A stretch of DNA of 57,180 nt from Bacteroidaceae bacterium. Lineage in GTDB: Bacteria; Bacteroidota; Bacteroidia; Bacteroidales; Bacteroidaceae. The notes beneath the pieces were generated by a model. The model saw only the letters and a list, made by a program, of their open reading frames with translations. It was not told the DNA's origin and did not search any database. Positions 49,195 through 57,180 of the stretch are shown here, one piece after another (within the stretch, counting starts at the first letter, position 1; each line of letters starts with the position of its first letter). Location: assembly GCA_017451645.1 (NCBI GenBank), contig JAFTNZ010000033.1, positions 1 through 57,180 of the forward strand. The letters run 5' to 3'. A program made the translations under genes and the position numbers.

Positions 49195-52119
49195 ATGGAA
49201 TATAATTTCAGAGAAATTGAGAAAAAATGGCAACAACGATGGGTGGAGCAGAAGACCTATAAAGTTGCTGAAGACGACACCAAAAAGAAATTCTATGTAC
49301 TGAATATGTTCCCCTATCCATCAGGGGCCGGATTGCACGTGGGCCATCCGCTGGGCTACATTGCCAGTGACATTTATGCCCGATACAAACGCCAACAGGG
49401 ATTCAACGTGCTGAATCCCATGGGATATGATGCGTATGGATTGCCAGCAGAACAATATGCTATACAGACCGGACAACACCCGGCCGTTACCACAGAAGCA
49501 AACATCAACCGCTACCGTGAGCAATTGGACAAGATAGGTTTCTCATTCGATTGGGACCGCGAAGTGCGTACCTGCGAACCGGGATACTACCATTGGACCC
49601 AATGGGCCTTCCAACAGATGTTCGGCAGTTTCTATTGCAACTCTTGCCAGAAGGCACAACCCATCAGCAAACTGGTGGAACACTTTGCCCAGAAGGGTAC
49701 AGAAGGACTGGACGTGGCCCAAAGTGAAGAATTGAACTTCACCGCCGATGAGTGGAATGCCATGACAGAGAAGGAGCAGCAAGAGACATTGATGAACTAC
49801 CGCATCGCTTATCTGGGCGAAACCATGGTAAACTGGTGTCCGGCCTTAGGTACAGTATTGGCCAACGACGAAGTGGTGGACGGTGTATCTGAACGCGGCG
49901 GATTCCCTGTAGTGCAGAAGAAGATGCGCCAATGGTGCTTGCGTGTAAGCGCCTATGCACAGCGTCTGCTTGACGGATTGGACAAGATAGATTGGACAGA
50001 GTCACTGAAGGAGACCCAGAAGAACTGGATTGGCCGCTCAGAGGGTGCCGAGGTACAATTCCGCGTGAAAGACTCAGACATGGAATTCACCATCTTCACC
50101 ACCCGTGCAGACACCATGTTCGGCGTCACCTTCATGGTATTGGCACCCGAAAGTGAGTTGGTTGCCCAACTGACAACAGCCGAGCAGAAGGAGGAGGTAG
50201 AAGCTTACCTTGACCGCACCAAGAAGCGTACCGAGCGCGAACGTATCGCCGATCGCAAGGTGACAGGTGTATTCAGTGGCTCGTATGCCATCAACCCCTT
50301 CACCGGTGAGGCTGTACCCATCTGGATCAGTGACTATGTATTGGCCGGATACGGAACAGGTGCCATCATGGCCGTACCTGCCCACGACAGCCGTGACTAT
50401 GCTTTTGCCAAGCACTTTGGCTTGCCTATCATCCCATTGGTTGAGGGATGCGATGTGAGCGAAGAAAGTTTCGATGCCAAAGAGGGTATCGTCTGCAACA
50501 GTCCCAGAAGACCCCATCCCAGCCTTCCCCAAGGGGAAGGAGTAAAAACTTCTGCCATTGATGGGCAAAACAATTCACTCCCCTCCCTTGCGGAGGGGCA
50601 GGGGGAGGGTCTGGTCCTCAACGGACTTACCATCAAAGAGGCTATCGCTGCCACCAAGAAATATGTGAAAGAGCACGGACTTGGCCGCGTGAAGGTGAAC
50701 TTCCGTCTTCGCGATGCCATCTTCAGCCGCCAGCGCTACTGGGGCGAACCGTTCCCTGTATATTACAAGGATGGCATGCCCTACATGATTGATAGCAGCA
50801 AACTTCCACTGGAACTCCCCGAAGTATCCAAGTTCCTGCCTACCGAGACAGGCGAACCACCGTTGGGCAATGCAACCAAGTGGGCTTGGGATGTACAGAA
50901 AGGCGAAGTGGTGGACAATACCCTCATCGACAACGTAAATGTATTCCCCTTGGAACTGAATACAATGCCTGGCTTTGCCGGTTCAAGCGCCTACTATTTG
51001 CGCTATATGGACCCGCAGAACGACAACGCATTGCTGAGTCAGAAGGCTGCAGGCTACTGGCAGAATGTGGACCTTTATGTAGGTGGTACCGAACACGCTA
51101 CAGGACACCTTATCTACAGCCGTTTCTGGAACAAGTTCCTCTATGACCTGGGAGTCAGCATGAAGGATGAGCCATTCCAGAAACTGGTGAACCAAGGAAT
51201 GATTCAGGGACGAAGCAACTTCGTATATCGTATCAAGGATACCAACACCTTCGTCAGCCATGGCCTGAAGGGCCAGTACGATGTGACACCCCTGCATGTC
51301 GATGTGAACATTGTAAGTGCCGATGTGTTGGATGTGGAAGCTTTTAAGGCATGGCGTCCTGAGTATAACGATGCAGAGTTCATCCTTGAGGATGGCAAAT
51401 ATATCTGCGGTTGGGCCGTAGAGAAGATGTCAAAATCGATGTTCAACGTGGTGAACCCCGACATGATTGTAGAGAAATACGGTGCCGACACCTTGCGTAT
51501 GTACGAGATGTTCTTGGGACCTGTAGAGCAGAGCAAACCATGGGATACTAACGGAATCGATGGTGTACACCGCTTCTTGAAGAAGCTGTGGGGATTGTTC
51601 TACAGCCGTACGGATGAATATCTGCCCACCGATGTCCCCGCGACAAAAGAGGAGTTGAAGTGCATCCACAAACTCATCAAGAAGGTAACCGGTGATATCG
51701 AGACCTTCTCATACAACACCAGCATCAGTGCCTTCATGATTTGTGTCAACGAACTGATCCAATTGAAGTGTCGTTCTACAGAGGTCCTGCGCCTGCTGAC
51801 CACGCTGATTGCGCCTTTTGCCCCCCATTTGGCCGAAGAACTTTGGGAAATGCTGCATAGTGACGGACTGCCAGTTACCAGTGTCTGCGATGCCAAGTGG
51901 CCGGAGTACAATGAATCATACCTTGTAGAGGATACCGTAAAATATACCATCTCTTTCAACGGTAAGGCACGTTTCACATTGGACTTCCCTGCAGATGCCG
52001 ATAATGCAACCATCGAAAGTACTGTGATGGCTGACGAGCAGAGTCAGAAATGGATTGAAGGAAAGACTCCGAAGAAGGTCATCATCGTACCGAAAAAGAT
52101 TGTGAACATTGTACTGTAA
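49195..52119 (+). CDS. leuS: leucyl-tRNA synthetase carrying an in-frame repeat insertion
   Basis: A 974-residue class Ia synthetase that charges tRNA-Leu. The HIGH-type motif is HVGHPLGY near residue 48; the CP1 editing domain is recognisable by [19 protein letters not shown] and [21 protein letters not shown] stands at 744-748 ([10 protein letters not shown]), and the anticodon domain and C-terminal end (KKIVNIVL) are present. Residues ~439-473 are encoded by a palindromic repeat element (50509-50612), giving a Pro, Ser, Gly, Gln-rich stretch that I do not know from other LeuRS. It lies just after the editing domain, in a surface linker by context, so function can be kept. Codon use becomes more GC rich than in the genes before it. 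Confidence 0.97.
50509..50612. repeat. palindromic interspersed element, copy 1 (inside leuS)
   Basis: 104 bp with ends AGACCC and GGGTCT. It has two hairpins: CCTTCCCC-AA-GGGGAAGG (50523-50540) and CCCCTCC (50580-50586) with GGAGGGG (50592-50598). The frame stays open through it. It matches copy 2 (52122-52230) in layout and in many bases, with paired changes in the stems. Confidence 0.8.
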
Positions 52120-52121
52120 AC

Positions 52122-52230
52122 AGACCCTCCCCCTACCCCTCCCAAGGGAGGGGAGTAAATAGACAATACGTATGGAAACAGACAAAAAAGGCAACTCACT
52201 CCCCTCCTCTGGGAGGGGCAGGGTGGGTCT
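52122..52230. repeat. palindromic interspersed element, copy 2 (leuS/yitT junction)
   Basis: 109 bp with ends AGACCC and GGGTCT. Hairpins CCCCTCCC-AA-GGGAGGGG (52136-52153) and CCCCTCC (52201-52207) with GGAGGGG (52212-52218). It begins 3 bp after the leuS stop and contains the ATG and first ~19 codons of the next gene. Confidence 0.8.
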
Positions 52231-53119
52231 TCTTTGGCGAGAAACCAAAGACTATCTCACAATCACTTTAGGCTTGATGGCCTATGCACTCGGATGGACC
52301 CTTTTCCTGCTACCCTATCAGATAACCACGGGAGGAGTGACAGGTATCTCGGCCATCATATACTATGCCACAGGCATTGAGATGCAAATTTCCTATTTCG
52401 TCATCAATGCGGCCTTTCTGGCAGTAGCCCTCTATATCTTGGGACTGAAATTCTGCTTGAAAACTATCTATTCTGTATCGGTGCTGACATTCTTCCTGGA
52501 TGTATTCCAAGAGATGATGAAGAACCCCGAAACAGGCGAACTACTACAAATTATCGGTCCCGGACAGGACTTTATGGCCTGCGTCATCGGTTCCATATTC
52601 TGCGGAGTAGGTATTGCCGTGGTATTCATAGTAGGTGGTAGTACGGGTGGTACGGACATCATCGCTGCCATTGTCAACAAGTACAAGACCATCACTTTCG
52701 GTCGCATGATTATGGTGTGCGACATTGTCATCATCTCTTCCTGCTATTTCATTTTCGAAGATTGGCGCCGCGTAGTATTCGGTTTCGTCACACTCATCAT
52801 CATCAGTGTGGCCATCGACTATATTGTCAACAGTGCCCGACAGAGTGTGCAATTCCTTATCTTCAGCAAGAAGTACGAGGAGATTGGCGAAGCTGTCTTA
52901 ACGGAAGTGAACCGCGGTGTCACCATACTGGATGGTACAGGCTTTTACAGCAAACAGCCTATGAAGGTACTTTGCATATTGGCCAAGAAGAGTGAGGCCA
53001 TCCACATTTTCCGCCTGGTGAAGGACATAGACCCCAACGCCTTCATTTCGCAAAGCAACGTGGTGGGTGTCTATGGCGAAGGATTTGACCAGATTAAAGT
53101 AAAGAGCAAGAAAAAATAA
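52172..53119 (+). CDS. YitT family membrane protein (DUF161/DUF2179)
   Basis: A 315-residue protein: five or six membrane helices (YLTITLGLMAYALGWTLFLLP, GIGVAVVFIVGG-type segments, VVFGFVTLIIISVAIDYIV), with the family motif TTGGVTGISAIIYYATG, followed by a cytoplasmic DUF2179 domain (TEVNRGVTILDGTGFYSKQPMKVLCILAKKSE). Such proteins are of unknown function, possibly transporters. The N-terminus up to about residue 19 (NSLPSSGRGRVGLL) is encoded by the palindromic element, so the start codon or its context was replaced by an insertion. No closer start with a good Shine-Dalgarno exists between the element and the first membrane helix. Confidence 0.9.
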   Translation: METDKKGNSLPSSGRGRVGLLWRETKDYLTITLGLMAYALGWTLFLLPYQITTGGVTGISAIIYYATGIEMQISYFVINAAFLAVALYILGLKFCLKTIYSVSVLTFFLDVFQEMMKNPETGELLQIIGPGQDFMACVIGSIFCGVGIAVVFIVGGSTGGTDIIAAIVNKYKTITFGRMIMVCDIVIISSCYFIFEDWRRVVFGFVTLIIISVAIDYIVNSARQSVQFLIFSKKYEEIGEAVLTEVNRGVTILDGTGFYSKQPMKVLCILAKKSEAIHIFRLVKDIDPNAFISQSNVVGVYGEGFDQIKVKSKKK

Positions 53120-53130
53120 GTGCATGTACA

Positions 53131-53194
53131 ATTTACCATTTACAAGGTACAATTTGTGTACAGCATGATAAATGGTACTTTGTAAATGGTAAAT
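53131..53194. repeat. 20-bp-arm palindrome between yitT-like gene and rdgB
   Basis: ATTTACCATTTACAAGGTAC (53131-53150) pairs with 53175-53194 with one mismatch. The right arm is followed by more TAAATGG words (53186-53200) that reach the rdgB start. No T tract, so a dispersed palindrome rather than a standard terminator. Confidence 0.65.
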
Positions 53195-53204
53195 GGTAAA
53201 TGAA

Positions 53205-53798
53205 ATGATTTTTGTAACAAACAACCGACACAAATTGGAGGAGGTTAGCGCCATCCTCGGAGACAGTATTGAACTGAAAAGCCTGAAAGAGATAGGTTGC
53301 ACCGACGACATTCCCGAAACAGCCGACACCTTGGAAGGAAACGCATTGATGAAAGCCCGTTATATCTATGAGCGCTATGGGCAGGATTGCTTTGCTGATG
53401 ACACTGGTTTGGAAGTCGATGCCTTGGATGGGGCCCCAGGTGTCTATTCTGCCCGTTATGCAGGTCCGGGACATGATTCTGAAGCCAACATGCAGAAGCT
53501 TTTGGAAGAATTGGATGGAAAAAATGACCGTCATGCACAATTTCGCACCGTTATTGCGTTAATAATAAAGGGAGAGGAGTTCCTTTTCGAGGGAGTGGTA
53601 AAGGGAACCATCCTGGAAGAGCGCGAGGGAGAAGGCGGATTCGGCTACGACCCCATCTTCCGCCCCGAAGGTTACGACCACTCTTTCGCGTTGTTGGGCA
53701 ATGACATCAAGAACCGCATTAGCCATCGTGCGCGTGCTGTGGAGAAGTTGTGCAAATTTCTTGCGGAGCATTCCCCGTGTAGTAGTTACAAGTGTTAG
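53205..53798 (+). CDS. rdgB: dITP/XTP pyrophosphatase (RdgB/HAM1 family)
   Basis: A 197-residue HAM1-family enzyme that hydrolyses dITP, ITP and XTP to the monophosphate, keeping deaminated purines out of DNA and RNA. Signature segments: [12 protein letters not shown] (substrate loop), [53 protein letters not shown] and the closing [13 protein letters not shown]. The start at 53205 ([10 protein letters not shown]) fits the family best; an ATG 12 bp upstream is inside the palindromic repeat. It is 15 bp from the porZ-like gene, so probably co-transcribed. Confidence 0.95.
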
Positions 53799-56952: not shown

Positions 56953-56976
56953 ATGGCTTTGCATGAAACTTTAATC

Positions 56977-57048
56977 ATCGTCGATGTTTATATAATCATC
57001 GACGATGACTATGTGATTATCGACGATGTTTATATAGTTATCGTCGAT
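56977..57048. repeat. four ATCGwCGAT sites at exact 21-bp spacing
   Basis: ATCGTCGAT at 56977-56985, ATCGACGAT at 56998-57006 and 57019-57027, ATCGTCGAT at 57040-57048; start-to-start distances are 21, 21 and 21 bp. The two forms are reverse complements, so the order is forward, reverse, reverse, forward. Spacers include TTTATATA twice. The array begins 25 bp upstream of the -33 element of the HU-HIG-like gene. Confidence 0.8.
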
Positions 57049-57180
57049 GATTAAACTTTTCTCTGTATGTTAACGATTTTAGTTGACTACTTTTCGTCTT
57101 ATTTGTATAGCAAGTTGACCCAGTTAAACAATATTTTTAATTATGGTTGACTTGTTTTTTATTTAGTCATACATTTGGTT
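57049..57180. other. window end, no gene seen
   Basis: About 130 bp of AT-rich sequence right of the operator array. No supported frame or repeat; any gene it belongs to lies outside the window. Confidence 0.5.

Follow-up and report, generated by a model that had tools for sequence, protein, structure and literature searches.

Whether a Bacteroidota palindromic repeat can enter the gene of an essential enzyme in frame is the question raised by leuS in the window, the 57,180-nucleotide stretch of Bacteroidaceae DNA that was analyzed. The initial annotation had suggested such an event, and our findings support the suggestion: the inserted residues are absent from the LeuRS of relatives, the element is dispersed, and further copies lie in frame elsewhere. 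Taken together, the results indicate that the element is probably a non-autonomous, REPIN/BIME-like repeat that is tolerated in LeuRS as a flexible loop and resembles the Rickettsia palindromic elements (RPEs) in behavior.

The leuS product was identified as a leucine--tRNA ligase by NCBIfam TIGR00396 (908 bits against a cut-off of 548). Apart from an identical copy on contig C29, this leuS is the sole copy found in the genome that contains the window (G000). The frame is open across the element, as previously described, and since it is open in the only leuS found, the insert is presumably translated. The 104-bp element with AGACCC and GGGTCT ends and two hairpins was correctly placed by the initial annotation. 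Approximately 35 residues are added, as claimed, but their true span is residues 438-472 (105 nt) and not 439-473. The features of the gene are as follows.

49195-52119, plus strand: leuS, leucine--tRNA ligase, 974 codons, carrier of the element (TIGR00396 and open frame)
50509-50612, plus strand: palindromic element, asymmetric "type A" copy, 104 bp, in frame in leuS (family search; missing from the other LeuRS of the genus)
50506-50610, plus strand: 35 codons (residues 438-472) where relatives have approximately 9 codons (alignment)
50509-50543, plus strand: left arm, with a hairpin at 50523-50540 (sequence reading; arm conservation over 70 copies)
50544-50576, plus strand: variable spacer, 33 bp (spacer conservation over 70 copies)
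50577-50612, plus strand: right arm, with a hairpin at 50580-50598 (sequence reading; profile matches; arm conservation)

In the protein alignment, the site corresponds to a stretch of LeuRS chain 9tjv_A, between residues 391 and 407, that did not align; we take this chain to be the E. coli enzyme, with the site within its CP1 editing domain. This alignment, combined with the domain limits of LeuRS, presumably places the insert on that domain. In the predicted structure, residues 438-471 lack secondary structure and have pLDDT values below 50; as the whole model is of poor quality (mean pLDDT 64.3, pTM 0.54, 272 of 974 residues below 50), this points only weakly to a disordered loop.

The LeuRS of relatives were compared, as the initial annotation had advised, and the result favored insertion: none of the 13 other LeuRS of the genus contained the 35-residue stretch (15 genomes including G000; G004 gave no leuS match, and G006, in which leuS is split on two contigs, was represented by residues 1-706), and the leuS-type repeat was found in this loop in none of 80 named relatives, a set that overlaps the genus set in part (e.g., L066 with G008 and L120 with G001) and is thus not independent of it. 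The loop, located by pattern in 79 of the 80 named loci, comprises 11 residues in 71 relatives, 10 in four, 12 in three, and 50 in L130, and it is shorter in the eightieth, L124. The 50 residues of L130 form an unrelated direct repeat of GTRGQGNE units at the same site as the window element. Within the genus, 11 of the 13 other LeuRS have a short loop, and the loops of G013 and G014 are approximately 14 residues longer and lack a leuS-type repeat.

An alignment gap exactly at 439-473 had also been predicted. The extra residues are indeed absent elsewhere, but the gap is not clean, with approximately nine native codons replaced. In the nearest relative, G002, the leuS flanks are 99% and 96% identical to those of G000, and 26 nt stand in place of the 104-nt element. 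Counted in codons, G000 has 35 and G002 has 9 (27 nt), a net gain of 78 nt that keeps the frame; this is therefore an insertion with loss of native sequence and not a clean insertion. The leuS event is a replacement of approximately 9 codons by 35. As a separate observation, the G002 LeuRS (L035, L048) contains another in-frame palindrome near residue 293, of the GAGCTAC type and approximately 21 residues long (fold z -3.62).

The genome-wide search that had been proposed revealed that the element is dispersed far above chance. The 104-bp query matched 59 places in G000 at E <= 10, among the matches listed 50 places at E <= 0.001, and the best copy outside the duplicate contig had E = 2.7e-22. 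A profile of the right half gave 65 matches in the stretches searched (47 at E <= 1e-5; two on the duplicate contig C21). Contigs C5 and C21 carry element places with the same scores and are redundant. Among the matches listed at E <= 0.001, 8 of the 15 genus genomes, including G000, carried the element and the other 7 had none; in the wider taxonomic family, 22 of 301 sampled genomes matched at E <= 1e-6, the 8 genus genomes included. Searches of 50,697 phage and 72,556 plasmid records yielded no match at E <= 1e-3, and one exact element pattern found nothing in viral contigs. On the absence of matches in those records, carriage of the family by phages or plasmids was rejected. A known RNA family was likewise rejected as the identity of the element, with six Rfam matches at E <= 1 in positions 50400-52400 of the window and none at gathering score.

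The family occurs in two layouts, asymmetric as in leuS and symmetric as in a copy immediately downstream.

52122-52230, strand not assigned: second family element, symmetric variant, between leuS and a YitT gene (family search and fold; same place in G002)

A second copy in nearby intergenic DNA had been reported at the outset; the two belong to the same family and the location is intergenic, but this is a symmetric variant that resembles the leuS copy in the arms only. Folded by itself, the leuS copy showed no significant advantage over shuffled sequences (z -1.36, with 19 of 200 shuffles equally good), in contrast to the intergenic copy at 52122-52230 (z -5.46) and the family consensus (z -4.42). 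For the asymmetric layout, 70 near-full-length copies from eight genomes were picked among the matches listed, with half-copies and the duplicate C29 copy omitted. The matched stretches of these listed copies measured 78-114 bp; most arm columns were 90-100% conserved, with a few lower, and most spacer columns were 39-80% conserved. The two inverted arms are related but not identical. The inner hairpin base read GTAG in 34, GTGA in 45, and GTAA in 24 of 114 scored arms, and the family thus has no fixed GTAG tag. Nested or partly duplicated copies occur. The one clear filled and empty pair (G006:C140 against G000) exhibited, by eye, a possible AT-rich 8-bp repeat; a clear target-site duplication was not seen in this single usable pair, and leuS shows loss instead.

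In-frame cases, which the initial annotation had proposed to count, proved to be common. In G000, 10 of 40 listed element places (merged from the 104-bp and right-half searches, with contigs C21 and C29 excluded as duplicates) are flanked within an ORF by 60 or more codons on either side. Seven ORFs are concerned, namely leuS, a GH2 enzyme, a CcsA-like protein, two ABC-F proteins, an 800-codon protein, and dnaG. The 800-codon ORF (L157, G000:C5:48391-50790), which has a weak DUF3987 match, carries three in-frame copies, and an ABC-F ORF (L153, G000:C12:144789-146894) carries two. Across the eight genomes, 26 of the 70 copies were in frame by the same measure of at least 60 codons on each side, at 10 sites; these copies were picked among the matches listed, so that the fraction should not be read as a rate for whole genomes. 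One of the 26, in G008:C125, lies in a probably spurious ORF, without which the count is 25 of 70 at 9 sites. The sites are those of LeuRS (one copy), GH2 (four), ResB (four), CcsA (five), a rhamnosidase-like protein (two), RNase R (four), agmatine deiminase (three), ABC-F (one), an RND transporter (one), and the doubtful ORF (one). The remaining 44 of these listed copies comprised 30 between ORFs, 12 across an ORF end, 1 inside another called ORF, and 1 at a contig edge.

The element has a modest excess of stop-free frames, with a mean of 2.33 per copy versus 1.78 after shuffling. Homologues without the insert were compared for LeuRS, agmatine deiminase, RNase R, and partly ResB and CcsA. Among element-free genomes, the agmatine deiminase loop was short in 7 of 7 and the RNase R loop in 5 of 5 that were aligned; the RNase R loop was also short in the element-bearing G004. 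In the RND-family ORF (L201, G006:C101), two more Pro/Gly-rich or repeat-like in-frame stretches were seen by eye in addition to the element.

We propose that a non-autonomous repeat, composed of two related inverted arms around a variable spacer and dispersed in a Phocaeicola-like gut clade, would be moved by an enzyme acting in trans. One copy entered leuS in the G000 lineage with the loss of approximately 26 bp of the native loop, and it would have survived because the phase used is free of stop codons and the net gain is divisible by three. Its translation would give the CP1 editing domain a flexible loop rich in Pro, Gly, and Ser, and the insert is presumably close to neutral for LeuRS.

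The search for a mover gave an equivocal result. PF01797 was not found in G000, which is 72.6% complete, and was found in 5 of the 15 genus genomes, two of them element-free. A RAYT-like protein of 345-347 residues, which matches NF047646 partially and below the cut-off, occurs in 3 of the 15 genomes, all element-bearing, and was found neither in G000 nor in G002 (91% complete). In the taxonomic family, NF047646 matched 11 of 22 element-bearing genomes versus 87 of 279 others, a difference that is not significant (Fisher p = 0.096), and its cut-off was passed by 11 of 301 genomes. No convincing element unit was found within 1.5 kb of the RAYT-like genes; in G007 and G008, an element copy lies 3.3 and 4.2 kb from the gene, respectively. 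Because the RAYT link is equivocal, we only infer movement in trans, with a RAYT-like Y1 transposase as the leading but unproven candidate. In the element-free genome G012, locus L061 contains an IS200/IS605 transposase, and nearby reading frames repeat one another.

Several sites that hold the leuS-type element in some species are filled by other repeats in others. The agmatine deiminase loop contains a GTTGAC/GTCAAC palindrome in G002 and G007 (fold z -7.06) and the leuS-type element in G003, G006, and G008. At the CcsA site, G002 has a repeat with GAGCTAC-type arms (z -2.15, equaled by 6 of 200 shuffles) versus the leuS-type element in five other genomes, and G002 also has a different repeat at the ResB site. 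Among six intergenic junctions with the leuS-type family in G000, G002 has other inverted repeats in four (by eye), an empty site in one, and the same family in one. These differently filled loops and junctions, together with the nested copies, suggest permissive sites that are re-used.

Such exchange could also apply to leuS, where the element may have replaced an earlier insert and not a native loop, and L130 shows that the same leuS loop can be filled by another repeat. We consider this alternative unlikely, however. No earlier leuS insert was seen in the genus, in which the loop is short or, in two genomes, somewhat longer, and independent insertion into permissive sites explains the remaining cases. 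A broader reading can be offered tentatively, as well below an even chance. In this gut clade, surface loops and intergenic junctions may serve as docking sites at which unrelated palindrome families are repeatedly inserted or exchanged between species. Agmatine deiminase, ResB/CcsA, and possibly LeuRS would then have, at one set position, a repeat-encoded peptide whose sequence varies, with the arms kept constant at the DNA level.

The preferred reading, a repeat that is merely tolerated, was also weighed against the alternative that the palindrome is kept in genes for a useful DNA or RNA role such as mRNA stability, pausing, or protein binding. The conservation of the arms over the 70 listed copies favors such a role, as does sequence change at shared sites. 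For six gene groups, the pooled pN/pS was 0.76 in the inserts versus 0.22 in the flanks, and the insert peptide is therefore weakly constrained; pS was 0.17 in the inserts versus 0.51 in the flanks, which suggests that insert DNA changes less than simple neutral inheritance predicts. A low pS with pN near pS indicates conservation at the DNA level and not at the protein level. The CcsA site alone showed little contrast (0.62 in inserts versus 0.53 in flanks). Arms differed by 0.085 at shared sites in genes (31 pairs) and by 0.070 at other shared sites (10 pairs), values barely below that for unrelated copies (0.095; 2,374 pairs), and the corresponding spacer differences were 0.234, 0.131, and 0.304. 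The pairs behind all these values are not independent, and the rhamnosidase-like pair consists of two contigs of one genome.

Nevertheless, a useful role appears improbable, slightly more so than the replacement of an earlier insert. The leuS copy is private to the G000 lineage, and no Rfam family reached its gathering score. Pairing in the outer stem fails in 60 of 317 cells, and double changes are scarce (0 in the left hairpin, 3 in the right hairpin, and 3 in the outer stem), with too few changes to judge covariation. The low divergence of the inserts could be explained by DNA-level constraint, by exchange with similar copies, or by repeated insertion, and the last two could yield the same pattern as a useful role. 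Recent copying within a genome, judged by spacer likeness, was not detected among the 70 listed copies (10.8 best matches in the same genome versus 10.0 expected; 197 of 500 permutations as high), and on this null result within-genome copying or conversion was set aside as an explanation of the conserved arms. A single pair of copies within one G003 operon resembles a local duplication.

An assembly artefact or chimera in a metagenome-assembled genome is less probable still. The leuS copy comes from one 2.5-Mb, incomplete assembly, and contigs C29 and C30, both carrying leuS, are identical over 5,922 bp, which looks like one locus assembled twice, so that C29 offers no independent support. However, the family is in frame in genes of seven other genomes, the frame is preserved across the leuS join, and G002 matches the surrounding region at 95-98% identity. 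That the loop is a native, lineage-specific LeuRS expansion merely resembling the repeat is scarcely credible, since its DNA belongs to the repeat family (89% identical over 104 bp to the G006 rhamnosidase-like copy and 82% to the G000 GH2 copy), even though G013, G014, and L130 show that the loop varies in length unaided.

The tolerated-repeat reading has published precedents. RPEs are stem-loop elements of 105-146 bp with terminal inverted repeats that occur between genes and in frame in conserved protein genes, among them 19 reading frames of Rickettsia; an insert-bearing guanylate kinase was active with a changed substrate affinity (PMC2229807). The leuS element is similar in having inverted repeats at its ends (here AGACCC/GGGTCT), in its length of one base under the RPE range, and in having copies in frame inside conserved protein genes. 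Unlike RPEs, it resides in gut Bacteroidota and not in Rickettsia, and the likeness is one of behavior.

According to PMC3733652, intragenic REP dimers of the GTAG/CGTC kind are present in several species, where many of them lengthen the protein by 20-30 residues; their targets include tRNA synthetases of X. oryzae, E. litoralis, and S. alaskensis; Bacteroidetes is among the phyla with CGTC repeats; and recB of two Xanthomonas species holds different REPs at approximately the same site, a precedent for re-used sites. Compared with the REPs so described, the leuS-type family is longer (104 bp, 35 codons) and lacks an invariant GTAG, which, scored at the inner base only, occurs in 34 of 114 arms.

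REPINs, in which a short and highly diverse spacer separates two inverted units, are duplicated by RAYT and have many genomic copies (PMC8049555). The leuS-type family shares the two inverted units, the variable spacer, and the many copies per genome, but its arms differ from each other and no RAYT was found in G000. MITEs such as the Coxiella QMITEs are short, non-autonomous, and lie in or extend ORFs in frame (PMC5896051). The leuS-type element is likewise short and in frame in ORFs; unlike MITEs, it has no recognized target-site duplication or parent transposon.

Among the open-licence papers listed for intragenic palindromes in Bacteroides, Phocaeicola, or Bacteroidetes, and judged by title and the start of the abstract, only PMC3733652 dealt with the topic. 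In-frame repeat invasion is thus already known; what looks new, within the reach of this literature search, is the leuS-type family, the clade, and the proteins concerned. The findings bring the in-frame invasion of housekeeping proteins, on record for Rickettsia and some REP-rich bacteria, to several protein sites in gut Bacteroidota. The filled, empty, and differently filled sites of related species make the question of whether the peptide is junk or useful testable by comparison. Stretches such as PHPxLPQGEG...SLPSLxEGQGEG in predicted proteins of the clade should be regarded as repeat-derived and not as functional motifs. Of greatest interest for further work are the loops that unrelated repeats fill in turn and the conservation of the arms.

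The second element of the window also overlaps a reading frame.

52172-53119, plus strand: YitT-family membrane protein ORF, with its first listed start codon inside the second element (PF02588, E = 1e-57)

The position of this start suggests that the YitT N-terminus may be element-encoded. The start of the G002 YitT gene likewise lies inside an element, and among 16 other loci scanned by pattern, 4 matched, all with different N-termini. Farther downstream, the window contains two strong inverted repeats, I1 (53112-53213) and I2 (56966-57059), which are probably further palindrome families; by eye, an I1-type repeat also occurs at a G002 junction where G000 has a leuS-type element.
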